From the IMG/VR virus record IMGVR_UViG_3300005289_000012, positions 1 to 37,369 of that record: 37,369 nucleotides of DNA; one strand, written 5' to 3'. Below are positions 27,252-35,533 of this stretch, in pieces (position 1 is the first letter of the stretch; every line of letters starts with the position of its first letter). The DNA comes from a virus. The notes under the pieces are model-generated. The model was given only the letters and a program-made list of their open reading frames with translations. It was not told where the DNA came from and did not search any database. Position numbers and translations under genes: made by a program.

Positions 27252-27519
27252 ATGAACACGCAAACACCTACCCCCTACGCCGGGGCCACCCCCATCCATT
27301 CGAGCAACCGAACCCGGGTCGCCGTGAACGCCCTGCCCTGCGGCGGGCGCGAGATCGTCACCAGCAACACCGCGCTGACCATGCAATGGGTGAGCGGGGT
27401 CGTCTGGATCGCCTTCAACATGCGGACCGATCGGGTTTCGCTTCCTGCAGGAGTGCAGGACCGGCTACGCCCACGTAGGCGAACGCCAGGGCGGGCCCTA
27501 TGACCAGGGCGAGCGATGA
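27252..27519 (+). pseudogene. Small plus-strand gene with an apparent frameshift
   Basis: AAGGAGGA lies upstream of the ATG at 27252, though the gap of 13 nt is long. The frame reads MNTQTPTPYAGATPIHSSNR and has the GC-rich third positions of real genes up to about 27432. After the GGG at 27433-27435 the coding signal moves to the +1 frame, which reads RFLQECRTGYAHVGERQGGP and ends at TGA 27517-27519. In the original frame third positions become random and the frame stops at 27503. A one-base insertion, a sequencing error or programmed slippage could explain this. It lies between cro and the CII-like gene on the opposite strand, within the presumed PRE leader. No family recognised. Confidence 0.5.
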
Positions 27520-27535
27520 AAATGGCTGCCATGGC

Positions 27536-27760
27536 TCAGGCCTCCACAATGGGCGAGCTATCTGGTCGGGCGGTGACGGAGCGGACCGGCTCCTGTTTGA
27601 TGCCCTGCGCCTGGCGAGTGAGGGCCACAAGAACTCGGCCCTCCATGGGGGTCGTGAGCACTTCGGGCCATTGGCTGATTGCCGAGTGCGTCACACCGAG
27701 GGCCTTGGCAGCTGTCGAGACCTTGCCCCCAAGGAGATCGATGGCAGTGGTTTTGAGCAT
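27536..27760 (-). CDS. cro: Cro-like repressor
   Basis: A 74-residue protein starting MLKTTAIDLLGGKVSTAAKA; LGVTHSAISQWPEVLT forms the helix-turn-helix of the P22/HK022-type Cro family. The C-terminal half is basic and flexible. It is divergent from cI and shares three operators with it. The first ATG at 27769 (MGPMLK) is less likely, because the predicted transcript begins about 27763. Translation would then start 2-4 nt from the RNA end. Cro lowers cI and early transcription during lytic growth. Confidence 0.85.
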   Translation of the reverse strand: MLKTTAIDLLGGKVSTAAKALGVTHSAISQWPEVLTTPMEGRVLVALTRQAQGIKQEPVRSVTARPDSSPIVEA

Positions 27761-27769
27761 AGGGCCCAA

Positions 27770-27798
27770 ATGTTAGCCGACTTACAGATACCGCGCAA
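27770..27798 (-). promoter_or_regulatory. PR-like promoter for cro and the early operon
   Basis: On the minus strand, TTGCGC (27798-27793), a 17-nt spacer and TAACAT (27775-27770). The -35 overlaps operator O2 and the -10 overlaps O1. The predicted start is about 3 nt before the cro ATG, so the mRNA may be leaderless. Confidence 0.6.
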
Positions 27799-27836
27799 GG
27801 GTGCTTACGACCGTTCGACGTTTAATCTCACTTACA
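27771..27836. promoter_or_regulatory. Operator region (OR-like): three 16-bp operators between cro and cI
   Basis: O1 TGTTAGCCGACTTACA (27771-27786), O2 CGCAAGGGTGCTTACG (27794-27809) and O3 TTTAATCTCACTTACA (27821-27836) are imperfect dyads of the form TGTAAG-N4-CTTACA. Their centres are 23 and 27 bp apart. O3 covers the likely cI -10 (TTTAAT) and the A of the cI ATG, so cI mRNA may also be leaderless, as from lambda PRM. Confidence 0.68.
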
Positions 27837-28510
27837 TGAGCACACTGCAAGAGCGAATCGCGGAATTGATGGATGTCACCGGCTGGAAAGTCGGGGATCT
27901 GGCTGAGATCGCAGGTGTGTCCTCGTCCGCCGCCTCGCAGTGGAAGGACGGCCCCACCATGTCGATCAAGCTGGAGCCGGCTGTTCGCCTTTCAGCGAAG
28001 TGCGGCTACAGCGCGCTTTGGATCGCAAACGGCAAGGGACCAAAAAAGGCGGCGATTCCGCCAGGAGACGGCATTCTTGAACCCGAATACGCAGGCGCGC
28101 CACGGCCGCCAAGGCAAGTGCCAGTGGTAGGCACGGCAAAGCTCGGCTCGGACGGGTTTTATGAGGAACTGAGCCCTGTTGTGGGCGCTGGTGACGGCCA
28201 CATAGAAATCGCCACGGAAGACCCCAACGCCTACGGGCTGCGCGTCCGTGGACAGAGCATGTTCCCGGCCATCAGAGACGGCTGGTATGTGCTTGTCGAG
28301 CCCAATGGACGGCCGGCGATTGGGGAATATGTGTTGGTCAAGCTCCTGACCGGACAGAAGATGGTCAAGGAGCTACTGAACAGCCGCGCCGGCTCGTATG
28401 AGGTGGTGAGCGTCAACGGCGGCGAGCGGATGACATTTCACAGCTCGGAGATTGACAGTGTGCAAGCCGTGGGCGCGGTGGTGTCGCCGAGCAAATGGCG
28501 TCCGGAGTAA
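27836..28510 (+). CDS. cI: CI-like repressor with S24 self-cleavage domain
   Basis: A 224-residue protein starting MSTLQERIAELMDVTGWKVG. The helix-turn-helix lies at about residues 17-38 (DLAEIAGVSSSAASQWKDG). A possible RecA-stimulated cleavage point is A86-G87 in EPEYAGAP. The S24/LexA domain has Ser141 in RGQSMFPAI and Lys178 in QKMVKEL. It maintains lysogeny by binding the operators here and near 29.3 kb, and is inactivated in the SOS response. No ribosome-binding site precedes the ATG, which fits a leaderless transcript. Two further genes follow closely. Confidence 0.9.
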   Translation: MSTLQERIAELMDVTGWKVGDLAEIAGVSSSAASQWKDGPTMSIKLEPAVRLSAKCGYSALWIANGKGPKKAAIPPGDGILEPEYAGAPRPPRQVPVVGTAKLGSDGFYEELSPVVGAGDGHIEIATEDPNAYGLRVRGQSMFPAIRDGWYVLVEPNGRPAIGEYVLVKLLTGQKMVKELLNSRAGSYEVVSVNGGERMTFHSSEIDSVQAVGAVVSPSKWRPE

Positions 28511-28514
28511 ACGC

Positions 28515-28823
28515 ATGCACGCCGCCTCATTCCTCACCGCGCTCGTTCTGTTTTCCGGAGTGGTTGCGCCGGCCATTGCGCAACCCGCAAAGCCCAGGCC
28601 ATCGGCGACAAATGTGCGATCTGTCTGCCAAGAACTTGACGCCAGCATCCCCAATGTCAGAAAGGAAGTGGATCGACTGTCCGAAGGGATGTTCGATCCC
28701 AGCAAAGTTGGGTTGAGCCGTGATGAAATCATCGGTGCAGTAAATGCAGTCGAGAGCCTCGCCGTGAAGCGCGAAGAGTCGTGGCAACGGCTTGGCTGTG
28801 CGGCGATCATCTACGGCAAGTGA
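28515..28823 (+). CDS. Secreted protein of unknown function
   Basis: GGAG lies 7 nt before the ATG. The 102-residue product has a clear signal peptide (MHAASFLTALVLFSGVVAPA, with cleavage likely after AIA at about residue 23). The mature part is helical, with two cysteines that could pair (at about 39 and 96). It begins only 5 nt after cI and ends overlapping the nuclease-like gene, so it is probably expressed in lysogens. A lysogenic-conversion or exclusion role is possible; no family recognised. Confidence 0.68.
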   Translation: MHAASFLTALVLFSGVVAPAIAQPAKPRPSATNVRSVCQELDASIPNVRKEVDRLSEGMFDPSKVGLSRDEIIGAVNAVESLAVKREESWQRLGCAAIIYGK

Positions 28824-29239
28824 CGGCCGCGCTGCTCTGCCTGGTCGTCGCCATAGCTGACGGCGACACCCTCACCGCTCGATGCGGCGAGCCCGGGGCC
28901 TACCAGCAGGTCAAGGTGCGGATCAGTGCCATAGACGCACCCGAGAAAGGCCAGGACTTCGGGAGTGTGTCTCGGCAGCACCTGGCGGCTCTGTGCTTCC
29001 AGCAGGCGGCCACCATTACCCCCAAGACCACGGACCGGTACAAGCGCACCGTGGCGGATGTGGAGTGCCGGGGGAAAGACGCCGGCCAGGAGCAGGTCCG
29101 GGCCGGCTTAGCCTGGTACTACGTGAAGTACGGGAGGGGGTACGAACACCTGGCCCAGGTTGAGCAGCAGGCCCGGGACGCTGGGCGCGGGGTCTGGTCC
29201 CTGAACCCCGTTCCACCGTGGGAGTGGCGCAAGCGCTGA
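28820..29239 (+). CDS. Thermonuclease (staphylococcal nuclease)-like protein
   Basis: The GTG at 28820 forms a GTGA overlap with the upstream stop and gives 139 residues. The SNase fold is clear: AIADGDTL (D14, D16), VRISAIDAPE (R34, D39, E42) and TDRYKRTVADVEC (R76) match the metal-binding and catalytic residues, and GVWSLNPVPPWEWRKR is the family's usual end. The enzyme class cuts DNA and RNA in a calcium-dependent way. The N-terminus is hydrophobic (TAALLCLVVAIA) but runs straight into the first strand, so export is uncertain; an in-frame ATG at 28781 is an alternative start. It appears cotranscribed with cI. Confidence 0.85.
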   Translation: MTAALLCLVVAIADGDTLTARCGEPGAYQQVKVRISAIDAPEKGQDFGSVSRQHLAALCFQQAATITPKTTDRYKRTVADVECRGKDAGQEQVRAGLAWYYVKYGRGYEHLAQVEQQARDAGRGVWSLNPVPPWEWRKR

Positions 29240-29245
29240 ACCACG

Positions 29246-29312
29246 AATTTCTTAGTGCACTTTAGAAATTTTCGTAAGAGCGCTTGAAGTTTGCCGTTAG
29301 TTGACTTACATT
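29246..29312 (+). promoter_or_regulatory. OL/PL-like operator-promoter region
   Basis: CGTTAGTTGACTTACA (29295-29310) matches O1 of the cI-cro region at 13 of 15 bases over GTTAGNNGACTTACA. CGTAAGAGCGCTTGAA (29273-29288) matches O2. A third dyad, AATTTCT/AGAAATT, centres at 29258. Centres are 22-23 bp apart. TTGAAG (29284-29289) and TACATT (29307-29312), 17 nt apart, form a plus-strand promoter placed on the operators just as at PR. Confidence 0.68.
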
Positions 29313-29346
29313 CGCTTCACTGGCCTTGTGGCCTTTGGAGCGAAAA

Positions 29347-29568
29347 ATGCTGCTTGCCGACCCGGCGGACGCCGATACCTACCTCTCACCCCTGCAGCGC
29401 GCAGAGCGCCAGATCGCCGACGAGCTGGGAGAACAACCGCACAAGCACCGCGACGCGGCGGCCGATTTCAGCCCCTGCATGCACATCGATGACAAGTTTG
29501 TCATGCGCGCGTGCGGCTGGGCCGCTGCTGCCCTGGCCGTCATGCATCTTGCCGGGATGCTTCCGTGA
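29347..29568 (+). CDS. Hypothetical early membrane protein
   Basis: GGAG lies 6 nt before the ATG at 29347. The 73-residue product (MLLADPADADTYLSPLQRAE) has a charged N-terminal half and one C-terminal membrane helix (RACGWAAAALAVMHLAGMLP). It is the first gene after the PL-like promoter. Position recalls the small membrane or inhibitor genes expressed first in lambdoid phages, but no function can be read from the sequence. Confidence 0.64.
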   Translation: MLLADPADADTYLSPLQRAERQIADELGEQPHKHRDAAADFSPCMHIDDKFVMRACGWAAAALAVMHLAGMLP

Positions 29569-29948
29569 AGCGCATGTCCCGCTGGGCACAGCAGAAGGTC
29601 GAGGCCGATCTGTTGGAGTTACGTCTTCGCGCGCGCCATGAAGGCGGCGAGCTGGGCCCCGACTACATCAGGTTCTTGCTCGAAGAAAACCGCCACCTTT
29701 CCGAGCAGGCCATTCGGCAAGCGTTCGCGGAAGGCCTGGCCGATCGGGCGACGGGCATGCGCTGCATGTGCACGAAATGCGCGATCGACCAAGAGCGCAT
29801 CTTGCAGCACGAATACATGCGCCATGAATACGGCCGGCGCCGCTGGCAGGAACTGCGAGCCGCCGGCATGGACGAGTTCGAGATCGGACACCGCGTCGAG
29901 ACCGAGATTGCCAACGGTGCCGCTCTGCGAGGTGCAACGCATGCTTGA
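29565..29948 (+). CDS. Hypothetical early protein with a cysteine motif
   Basis: A GTG at 29565 overlaps the upstream stop (GTGA), giving 127 residues. The protein is helical and basic at first (KRMSRWAQQKVEADLLELRL). It contains CMCTKCAID at about residues 66-74, a likely metal site, followed by HEYMRHEYGRRRWQELRAAG. It may be a small nucleic-acid-binding protein. It ends facing the 3' end of the Arc-like gene, with 8 nt between. Confidence 0.62.
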   Translation: MKRMSRWAQQKVEADLLELRLRARHEGGELGPDYIRFLLEENRHLSEQAIRQAFAEGLADRATGMRCMCTKCAIDQERILQHEYMRHEYGRRRWQELRAAGMDEFEIGHRVETEIANGAALRGATHA

Positions 29949-29955
29949 CCCTTCT

Positions 29956-30465
29956 TCAAAGGCCGGCACTTTGTGCAAAAGCTTCGATGTGGGCATCGGT
30001 GTCACGAAGCTCTACGCGAATGTTCTCCAGGGAGATTTCCGTCTCCCTCAGAGTCTTTCGGGCCTCGCGAAGCTTGGCCTGCAAGTGCCTGAAGGCGCCC
30101 AGATCTTGGCGCGACTCGGCCGCCGCCACTTCAGATTCGATCCGTTGCACGCGCTCTTTATCTCGCGCCACCCCTTCCCGTTGAACTTGCTCCGACAAGG
30201 CAAGGCTCTGCCTTATGTGCTTCAAACGAAGCAGCGTGTCTTCCCGGGTTTTAGCGGCCAACTGTTGTTCCAAGGCTTCCAGGCGGTCGATCACCTGTGC
30301 CGTTCCCGCCGCCGCATCAGGCTCCGCCCTCATGACAAAGCTCTGTTCCAGGCGGTCCACCACCTCAGCGGTCAGCGAGCGCTTGTTCTCGAATGCGGCT
30401 TTGTCCAGAGCTTCTTTCAGCTCTTCAGGAATGCGCATGTAAATGGTTGGGTCTGTTCTAGCCAT
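29956..30465 (-). CDS. Arc-like ribbon-helix-helix repressor with coiled-coil extension
   Basis: Residues 1-45 (MARTDPTIYMRIPEELKEAL and DKAAFENKRSLTAEVVDRLE) match the Arc family of ribbon-helix-helix DNA-binding proteins. P22 Arc is only about 53 residues, whereas here a 120-residue coiled coil follows (about 60-165, for example RLEALEQQLAAKTREDTLLR). This suggests a larger oligomer or partner binding. It is transcribed leftward against the integrase-side operon and diverges from another ribbon-helix-helix gene. Between them lies a palindromic operator, as in the P22 immI region. Confidence 0.82.
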   Translation of the reverse strand: MARTDPTIYMRIPEELKEALDKAAFENKRSLTAEVVDRLEQSFVMRAEPDAAAGTAQVIDRLEALEQQLAAKTREDTLLRLKHIRQSLALSEQVQREGVARDKERVQRIESEVAAAESRQDLGAFRHLQAKLREARKTLRETEISLENIRVELRDTDAHIEAFAQSAGL

Positions 30466-30486
30466 CAGTCAATCGCGCAAAAACAC

Positions 30487-30543
30487 TTGCGTAACCTATG
30501 CACCGTGCATAGAATCAATCCCGTGCACAGAACGTGCATAGAA
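30487..30543 (+). promoter_or_regulatory. Promoter with Arc/Mnt-type operators
   Basis: TTGCGT (30487-30492), 17 nt, TAGAAT (30510-30515) form a plus-strand promoter. CTATGCACCGTGCATAG (30496-30512) is a perfect 17-bp palindrome covering the spacer and -10. GTGCAYAGAA is repeated at 30505, 30523 and 30534. The region separates two divergent ribbon-helix-helix genes. Confidence 0.72.
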
Positions 30544-30559
30544 CTAGGAGTGTAGACCA

Positions 30560-30730
30560 ATGAAAGCGAAAACCGGTGGCTCCAAGCCCATTCAGCTCCG
30601 TCTGGACGCTGAGACCCATCAAAAGCTGATGCAGGAAGCCGCTCGACAAGAGCGCTCCATGACGTGGCTGGTGAACCGCATTCTGGCCGAGGCCATCAAG
30701 TCGATGCCGGCCCAACAAGCTACCCCCTAG
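30560..30730 (+). CDS. Small ribbon-helix-helix (Arc/Mnt-like) protein
   Basis: A 56-residue protein: MKAKTGGSKPIQLRLDAETH then QKLMQEAARQERSMTWLVNR. One strand (IQLRLD) and two helices fit the ribbon-helix-helix fold, with IQLRLD giving the DNA-contact strand. AGGAG stands about 10 nt before the ATG. It diverges from the larger Arc-like gene and shares its operator region. It probably represses its own promoter and the genes behind it. Confidence 0.74.
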   Translation: MKAKTGGSKPIQLRLDAETHQKLMQEAARQERSMTWLVNRILAEAIKSMPAQQATP

Positions 30731-34092: not shown

Positions 34093-34478
34093 AACGCGGC
34101 TACACCTACGCCCAGGCCATGGCCTATGCCGGCGTCAAACGCCGCACCTTCGACACGAAATGGCGGCCCCGCCTCGTTGCCATCAAACAGGGCTCCAGCC
34201 TGGTCTACGACCGCGCCGACCTCGATCGACTTTTCGACGAGTTCAAGGCAGACGCCGCAGGCGCGCCCCAGGCGGCCAACGACCCGGACGCCCAAATCCC
34301 CCACAATGGCCCTCGGAACGGACGGCCCGACCGAAACAAAGGAGTTAAACCATGGGCCGAACAACAACGGGGATCTACCCCGACCGAGAGAACACCTGGC
34401 AAATTGACAAATGGTTTCTGCAACACCGATTTCGTCAGCGCGGCTTCCCAAGTTTTGGCGAAGCGGAAAGCTGGCTGA
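34089..34478 (+). CDS. Excisionase-like DNA-binding protein
   Basis: Residues 1-55 (MKRGYTYAQAMAYAGVKRRT, then FDTKWRPRLVAIKQGSSLVY and DRADLDRLFDEFKADA) match small winged-helix proteins of the excisionase/AlpA type. These bend DNA and steer integrase toward excision. The C-terminal 70 residues are low-complexity and overlap the integrase start by 127 nt, an unusually long overlap. The gene's place directly before int is classic for xis. Confidence 0.62.
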   Translation: MKRGYTYAQAMAYAGVKRRTFDTKWRPRLVAIKQGSSLVYDRADLDRLFDEFKADAAGAPQAANDPDAQIPHNGPRNGRPDRNKGVKPWAEQQRGSTPTERTPGKLTNGFCNTDFVSAASQVLAKRKAG

Positions 34479-35533
34479 TCGCGAGGATGGCGGAGCGCCG
34501 TGGGGAGGTCGTGCATGGCACGCGCCCCGAGCGCACCTTCAGCCAAGCTGCAGGCCACTACTTGTTGACGCACCAGGACAAAGCCTCAATTGAGACCGAA
34601 ATCCACCTGCTCAACTCTGTGATGCCCTACATCGGCGCGCTCACGCTTCCCCAGGTTCACGACAGCACGTTGGCACCCTACGTCAATGCGCGGTTGGAGG
34701 ACGAGATCTCGCACAAGACCATCAATTTGGCCTTGGGCGTGGTCCGTCGCATCCTGAACCTGGCGGCGGCGGTGTGGCGGGACGATTCGACCGGCACCAC
34801 CTGGCTGGCGCAGGCGCCGAAGCTGACCATGCTGCCGCTCGTTGGGCACCAGCGTGACCCGCGCCCCATAACCTGGGGTCAGCAGCGGGTGCTGTTGCCC
34901 AAGCTGCCGGCGCACCTCTCCAGAATGGCGCTGTTCGTGCTCAACACCGGAGCGCGTGACAATGTTGTTTGCAACCTACAGTGGGATTGGGAAATCAAGA
35001 TCCCCGAGCTGGGGATCTCGGTCTTCGAGGTGCCGAAGCAGCATGTCAAGGGTCGCAAGCGCACCAGGGTGCTGGTATGCAACAGCGTGGCTCAGTCGAT
35101 CATCGATGCCTGCAGGGGCATGCACAAGACGCATGTTTTCGTGTGGCGTCGAGAGCGGGTGAAGAACCTCGATAAGGTGCCGGCGATGCCATACCGCCCG
35201 ATCCAGGTGATGAACAACACCGCTTGGCAGAACGGGCGCAAGGCCGCAGGCCTGGGCGATTTGCACGTTCATGACCTGCGTCACACGACGGGTATGCGTC
35301 TGCGCGAAGCTGGCGTGTCGGAAGGGACGATTTCGGCGGTGCTCTGGCACAGCACGGCCAACGTCACCCAGCACTACAGCGTGGCCCAGGTGGTGGAGCT
35401 GCACGAGGCACTGGAGAAAATCCGCGACGACAGCGGGCGCTGGAACCGCAGTTTGTCGATGATCCGGCTGGAACAAGAGGCGACGCGGGGTATGAATCCC
35501 CCAGAAGTCCCCCAACAAAGAAAAACGGGTTAG
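34352..35533 (+). CDS. int: Tyrosine integrase
   Basis: AAAGGAG lies 7 nt before the ATG. The 393-residue protein has an N-terminal arm-binding domain (1-55), a core-binding domain (60-160) and a catalytic domain with R202 (NTGARDNVV), a Lys in HVKGRKR (231-237), H307 and R310 (HDLRHTTG), H333 (LWHSTANVT) and Tyr342. It recombines attP with a host attachment site. Here that is the 3' end of a tRNA-Arg gene copied at 35573-35617. The 3' end of the gene itself carries one of the arm-type repeats. The usual LGHS is LWHS. Confidence 0.93.
   Translation: MGRTTTGIYPDRENTWQIDKWFLQHRFRQRGFPSFGEAESWLIARMAERRGEVVHGTRPERTFSQAAGHYLLTHQDKASIETEIHLLNSVMPYIGALTLPQVHDSTLAPYVNARLEDEISHKTINLALGVVRRILNLAAAVWRDDSTGTTWLAQAPKLTMLPLVGHQRDPRPITWGQQRVLLPKLPAHLSRMALFVLNTGARDNVVCNLQWDWEIKIPELGISVFEVPKQHVKGRKRTRVLVCNSVAQSIIDACRGMHKTHVFVWRRERVKNLDKVPAMPYRPIQVMNNTAWQNGRKAAGLGDLHVHDLRHTTGMRLREAGVSEGTISAVLWHSTANVTQHYSVAQVVELHEALEKIRDDSGRWNRSLSMIRLEQEATRGMNPPEVPQQRKTG
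35495..35513. repeat. Arm-type direct repeat, left copy
   Basis: AATCCCCCAGAAGTCCCCC, 19 bp, repeated exactly at 35711-35729. Each copy contains two A[AG]TCCCCC elements 11 bp apart, about one helical turn. The copies flank the attP core, as expected for integrase arm-binding sites. Confidence 0.72.

Follow-up and report, generated by a model that had tools for sequence, protein, structure and literature searches.

We describe here a second cluster of repressor operators in a complete IMG/VR virus record of 37,369 bp (the whole stretch of DNA analysed, hereafter the window), which lies downstream of the phage repressor gene cI. From our analysis, it is very probable that positions 29250-29312 are the left operator (OL) and the early left promoter (PL) of a lambda-like immunity region, predicted to be bound by the phage's own CI, and probably by Cro, in the manner proposed for the right operator (OR) and the right promoter (PR) between cI and cro. 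We regard it as a sound and recurrent OL/PL of the ordinary lambda-like kind, which is well-supported and belongs to a phage group having its own operator word; an additional feature of the PL leader is suggestive.

A preliminary description of the window had quoted four 16-mers and proposed that the two beyond cI copy the layout of the two over the cro promoter. All four were located (29273-29288 and 29295-29310 on the plus strand; 27794-27809 and 27771-27786 on the minus strand), and the layout is indeed shared: the sites start 22 bp apart at OL and 23 bp apart at OR, with the one-base difference taken up by the position of the -10 inside the site. The PL -35, TTGAAG, starts at base 12 of OL2, and the PR hexamers are set out alike. 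The arrangement had been understated, as OL holds three sites like OR (starting at 27771, 27794, and 27821); the site that we added is 29250-29265 (TCTTAGTGCACTTTAG), 23 bp before OL2, and the fifth site of the preliminary description is presumably 27821-27836. The centres of the two clusters are ∼1.48 kb apart. The window thus carries divergent cI and cro genes with several putative repressor sites between them, which is the lambda-type arrangement, and a second set of like sites past cI over a putative promoter in the direction of cI, the promoter being assigned by position and conservation only [Table 1].

We scored the sites with a symmetric weight matrix trained on 15 OR sites, picked by eye upstream of cI in five loci (the window, L002, L003, L004, and L008), with zero OL sites among them. 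A scan with this matrix returned 27771, 27821, 29295, 27794, 29250, and 29273 as the top six places of the whole window, so that the OL sites rank third (29295), fifth (29250), and sixth (29273); the seventh place scores 9.2 vs 11.05 for the sixth. With a matrix made from the window's three OR sites only, 29295 ranks third, 29273 fifth, and 29250 eighth. We then used a pair test, in which two sites 21-24 bp apart were required and the tested locus's own OR sites were excluded from training, with dinucleotide shuffles as the null (60 for the window, 150 for every other locus). The best non-OR place in the window was 29273+29295 with a score of 23.9, while the runner-up (8.5) still used the 29250 site and the next elsewhere scored 8.1; the maxima of the shuffles had a mean of 10.6 (sd 2.1).

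The relatives, gathered through CI similarity, are temperate phages and prophages, several of them from Burkholderiales-type hosts, and phage records similar at the DNA level each span at most 4% of the 6-kb query. A first profile search of genome contigs with the CI N-terminal alignment gave 0 loci; a second gave five, of which L028 and L029 matched across most of CI and L030-L032 only in its C-terminal part. Where the CI N-terminus is similar to that of the window, the top-scoring pair outside OR falls in the second cluster in 10 of 12 loci (the window and 11 relatives), at 0.72-2.0 kb downstream from the start of cI. In these ten (the window, L002, L003, L004, L008, L012, L013, L018, L019, and L024), the score was reached by 0/60 shuffles for the window and 0/150 for each of the others. 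Among the 14 comparison loci, at least 47/150 shuffles reached the best pair in ten; the remaining four were L011 (+1089, 4/150), whose CI N-terminus is moderately similar (40%), L005 (+726, 7/150), L027 (just upstream of its HTH (helix-turn-helix) gene, 6/150), and L026 (3.5 kb upstream, 20/150). Between two and four matrix sites make up the OL cluster of a relative; their spacing is mostly 21-23 bp, and some weaker sites in L004, L018, and L019 stand at 14- or 19-bp steps. A further operator-like site is found downstream of the PL -10 in L002 (6791-6806), L008 (6790-6805), and L004 (7713-7728), and that of L002 and L008 overlaps the leader hairpin considered below. At the other end, the overlap of OR3 with the cI start recurs in L002, L003, L004, and L008.

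An untrained test, in which every 16-mer of a locus's own OR region was compared with the remainder of that locus, gave a concordant picture. Left out of it were L014-L017 (contigs identical to L003, L002, L008, and L004), L020 and L022 (repressor and operator DNA the same as in L021), L025-L027 (weak HTH-only relatives), L009, L010, and L030-L032 (cI start not located), and L033-L043, of which L035, L036, and L038-L043 were replaced by the longer L044-L051, L033 and L034 lie within the records of L003 and L013, and L037 duplicates L024. The OR sequence of a locus recurs best 0.5-3.5 kb downstream of its cI in 22/29 loci vs 8.8 expected (nominal p 3e-7), that is, in 20/26 loci and in two of the three annotated phages (Bordetella PHB09 at +817 and Acinetobacter B1251 at +3448, not Pseudomonas PS-1). 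With three close kin removed, the count is 19/26 (nominal p 7e-6). Even among the 13 loci whose CI N-terminus we judged, in a grouping by hand, to be diverged or different, ten match vs 4.1 expected (nominal p 8e-4); five of the 13 (L047-L051) had been retrieved with the N-terminal alignment as distant matches of 25-41% identity. The operator words in these ten differ from that of the window, and the word of each locus is found at both of its clusters; examples, by eye, are AAAGCATGCTTT in L005, GTGAA/TTCAC in L006, ACAAC/GTTGT in L007, TTAGC/GCTAA in L047, and AATAAGATTTCTTA in L054. Such a change of both clusters in step is expected if a single repressor reads both. The proposal of an OL/PL counterpart for the same repressor is supported, as the second cluster recurs at varied distances with its sequence changing in step with OR. 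The operators also appear group-specific, as had been suggested: among the loci examined, near matches to the motif are seen together with an N-terminus of CI like that of the window, and other motifs occur in several of the loci whose N-terminus is diverged or different.

The promoter register recurs as well. In 20 of 26 loci, with anchors hand-set with a 17-bp spacer in mind, a hexamer that begins with TTG (19) or TTT (1) stands 17 bp upstream of the -10 in which the promoter-proximal site ends; the -35 of several relatives is TTGACA or TTGACG, and an 18-bp spacer yields a better -10 in some loci. A simple rule places a terminator-like stem and its T run ahead of OL in 19/26 loci; in one of them (L021), the putative terminator overlaps an operator. 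A terminator scan with a simple stem rule found none between cI and OL in the window. We also noticed a boxA-like GCTCTTTAA directly after the PL -10 region in two loci, L029 (Achromobacter) and L052 (Bordetella phage PHB09), which suggests that antitermination may act in these two.

Several observations weigh against this reading. We chose both the OR sites and the promoter anchors by eye, and the p values treat as independent a set of loci that is so only in part. With the trained matrix, L021 and L023 miss (51/150 and 87/150 shuffles reach their scores), and the untrained test fails to rank OL first in the window, L003, L004, L045, L048, L050, and L053. The window, L003, and L004 nevertheless pass the matrix test; L050 offers only 1 kb of sequence downstream, and in L045 the matrix finds three sites, at +615, +637, and +659, whose scores of 8.7-10.4 are modest. 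The individual sites in the window are imperfect palindromes (8-12 of 16 positions symmetric), the PL operon of the window is curtailed by a convergent gene at 29956-30465 on the minus strand, and a strict sigma-70 scan of 27400-30700 reports no promoter, the promoter hexamers of the window being weak. The promoter case rests on register and recurrence.

Among the other explanations, the one that survives best, unlikely as it is, holds that Cro, or a different HTH protein of the phage, is the main protein on the second cluster, whose role would be lytic shut-off instead of lysogenic repression. CI and Cro use common operators in lambdoid phages, and a P22_Cro-family Cro adjoins OR here; the motif, however, tracks the N-terminal domain of CI, in that similar N-termini share it and most others do not, in a comparison made for the CI proteins. 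We regard it as still less likely that OL is mainly there to loop with OR and so adjust the autoregulation of cI at OR3, PL being of secondary importance. A loop between the two clusters across ∼1.5 kb is in itself possible and the distance is compatible with it, but the promoter overlap is retained in most loci and the second cluster is kept across distances of ∼0.6 to 3.5 kb. L012, L013, L019, and L045, moreover, combine a related N-terminal HTH in CI with differing C-terminal parts and a second operator cluster, and Pfam does not find the S24 domain in CI of L019 and L045, which keep the cluster (with weaker sites in L045). Lambda-type C-terminal contacts are therefore unlikely to be the sole reason for the layout. 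Chance similarity, for which one could argue that AT-rich intergenic DNA favours TTAG/CTTA-like words and that single sites are imperfect palindromes, was rejected as most improbable on the matrix ranks and the shuffle test, and the cluster is repeated in the relatives, where its sites are for the most part 21-23 bp apart and its promoter is in the same register.

Taking 29250-29312 as a CI-controlled OL/PL, we propose that CI, and probably also Cro, would bind 16-bp TGTTAG-N4-CTTACA-like sites, three each at OR and OL. CI on OL1 and OL2 would cover the -10 and -35 of PL and block RNA polymerase, and CI on OR1 and OR2 would likewise block PR. The filling of OR3 should stop cI, judging from the end of OR3 on the cI start codon. 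Lysogens would keep both early promoters off, and both would fire upon inactivation of CI. We infer CI binding, repression, and cooperativity. By its predicted domains, CI is an HTH plus S24 repressor of the self-cleaving type; the Phage_CI_repr match to its HTH (E 0.0035) is under the Pfam curated cutoff. The cI gene appears leaderless, and only 9 nt separate the PR -10 from the ATG of cro, so cro is nearly leaderless, as it is, by eye, in most of the relatives shown. Leaderless RNA may be the start for both switch proteins, CI and Cro.

Table 1. Coordinates of the immunity region and neighbouring features in the window.
Feature	Position	Strand	Basis and remarks
cro-like gene	27536-27760	-	74 aa; Pfam P22_Cro E 3.5e-7, 30.3 bits vs cutoff 30.2
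PR	27770-27798	-	-35 TTGCGC 27798-27793, 17 bp, -10 TAACAT 27775-27770; from sequence
OR1	27771-27786		quoted 16-mer (minus strand) and OR matrix
OR2	27794-27809		quoted 16-mer (minus strand) and OR matrix
OR3	27821-27836		matrix; final base is the A of the cI ATG
cI repressor gene	27836-28510	+	224 aa, HTH plus Peptidase_S24; Pfam S24 E 8.7e-12; PHROG 4 E 1e-30
Small open reading frame	28515-28823	+	between cI and OL; signal-peptide-like start by eye; no PHROG match
Thermonuclease-like gene (SNase)	28781-29239	+	between cI and OL; Pfam SNase E 1.3e-18
OL3	29250-29265		23 bp before OL2; added in this work
OL2	29273-29288		quoted 16-mer, matrix, and pair test; spans most of the PL -35
PL	29284-29312	+	-35 TTGAAG 29284-29289, 17 bp, -10 TACATT 29307-29312; from sequence
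OL1	29295-29310		quoted 16-mer, matrix, and pair test; spans most of the PL -10
Inverted repeat	29313-29342	+	directly after the PL -10; as RNA pairs the Shine-Dalgarno GGAG 29337-29340
First PL gene	29347-29568	+	73 aa; no Pfam or PHROG match
Second PL gene	29574-29948	+	124 aa; no PHROG match; longer frame 29565-29945 without Pfam or PHROG match
Arc-like gene	29956-30465	-	convergent with the PL genes
Integrase gene	34352-35530	faced by PL	PHROG integrase E 6e-28

It had also been predicted that CI controls the integrase-side operon, which is only partly supported. PL does face the integrase, but just two co-directional genes come before the convergent Arc-like gene, and the next rightward genes begin past an intergenic region carrying its own repeats. 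The Arc/ribbon-helix-helix genes at 29956-30465 (minus strand) and 30560-30730 (plus strand) form a divergent pair, and the DNA that separates them contains a CTATGCAC/GTGCATAG palindrome as well as three repeats resembling CCGTGCATAGAA. This pair may be a separate switch for the integrase-ward genes, in the manner of immI of P22. The first PL gene was not recognisable by Pfam or PHROG as an N-type antiterminator; N-type proteins are short and diverse. By eye, the genes that come first after PL differ for the most part among the 13 loci in which they could be read (14 were tried), with one common gene in the close kin L002 and L008 and possibly a distant relative of it in L024. The distance from cI to OL varies also, and the intervening content is different in, at least, the window, L004, and PHB09.

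The PL leader of the window begins with an inverted repeat whose 3' arm contains the GGAG of the first PL gene (start 29347). As RNA, the repeat folds with -19.4 kcal/mol, a value that drops to -7.7 when the RNA begins at the expected start. The six bases that follow the PL -10 contribute, in a good part of the loci, to a hairpin able to hide the ribosome-binding site of the first gene in read-through RNA. Among 18 leaders bounded by hand, with letter shuffles as the null, 14 had z < -2. The mean probability of an unpaired Shine-Dalgarno (SD) sequence was 0.21 in read-through RNA vs 0.44 in RNA from the expected start (17 loci, L046 excluded), and the SD was more open in PL RNA in 13/17 loci, the exceptions being L002, L008, L024, and L047. 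In a fixed 40-nt window after the -10, placed in the 26 loci with a placeable OL1 (not L048, L050, and L053), 11/26 leaders had z < -2, that of the window being among the strongest and the sequences mostly different; a second run with different shuffles gave 12/26. The controls reached this threshold in 16 of 312 random 40-mers from the same loci and in 13 of 178 leaders of other long open reading frames with an SD-like word, and leaders begun at the expected +1 in 2/26 (Mann-Whitney p 9e-5 vs random, paired p 0.004). We considered whether the hairpin substitutes for an absent terminator, which was not established: mean leader z is -2.57 in the seven loci without a terminator and -1.40 in the 19 with one (Mann-Whitney p 0.07, Fisher p 0.19).

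From these leaders, we tentatively put forward, as a proposal with somewhat less than an even chance of being right, that the PL end is a portable two-layer lock, in which the CI sites shut the promoter and the placing of the promoter inside an inverted repeat hides the SD in read-through RNA. The 5' arm would cover the few bases between the -10 and the RNA start; RNA made from PL would lose much of this arm and be translated, and read-through RNA of the cI operon in a lysogen would retain it, with its SD hidden, and stay silent. Given the differing operator words and leaders and the mostly differing first genes, such a lock would be a selected architecture. Folding fits an SD-hiding hairpin in the window and in part of the relatives, with assumed RNA start sites. 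Against the lock, 15/26 loci miss the z < -2 threshold, the start sites are assumed, and the pattern was noticed by eye ahead of testing.

In essence, a two-cluster lambda-style switch is the usual layout in the sampled CI relatives, and the clusters keep pace when the DNA-binding domain of CI changes. These loci are natural replicates, with OL-OR distances of ∼0.6 to 3.5 kb and with or without a recognisable S24, and they make it directly testable whether looping keeps OL in place. Among the top matches in the openly licensed literature, neither this phage group nor a leader of this kind at a PL under CI control was described, which is weak evidence of novelty.

In lambda, cI lies between the operator sets, PL points in the direction of cI, the sites lie over -35 and -10, and cI is leaderless. 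The window is alike in having two three-site sets with cI between them, a PL co-directional with cI, the promoter overlap, and an apparently leaderless cI. It differs in its spacing (∼1.5 kb vs ∼2.3 kb in lambda), in its operator word and CI DNA-binding domain, in lacking a recognisable N-like first PL gene, in its nearly leaderless cro, and in a PL leader of ∼28 nt vs the long nutL leader of lambda. Two operator sets read by one CI are the lambda design (PMC5880393; PMC5977221), and the former paper gives two sets of three operators. The Stx phages 933W and BAA2326 also have lambdoid CI switches with OR1-OR3; the OL and OR regions of BAA2326 are 3.2 kb apart, and 933W is reported to have no OL3 (PMC5977221), unlike the window with its three OL sites. 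In Bordetella phage vB_BbrS_PHB09 (MN103401.1), CI is 56% identical over residues 83-222 of the window CI, and the best recurrence of its own OR sequence is found 0.8 kb downstream, past a terminator-like stem. Its operator word is GTTGA/TCAAC-like by eye, and its leader, which carries the boxA-like GCTCTTTAA, shows no unusual folding in the fixed window. The closest parallel to the leader that we came across is at T4 I-TevI, I-TevII, I-TevIII, and segB and at Aeh1 mobE, where, according to PMC2988022, the start site lets only upstream transcripts carry a structure that hides the ribosome-binding site. The repeat in the window would similarly lose its 5' arm in RNA from the local promoter. The T4-type hairpins are found in virulent phages, at homing endonuclease genes and their late or middle promoters, whereas here the promoter is a predicted CI-controlled PL in temperate phages. 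If true, the lock would be a second guard that keeps early genes from leaking in lysogens; as a selected architecture of temperate phages, it would resemble the T4 hairpins but serve the lysogenic state.
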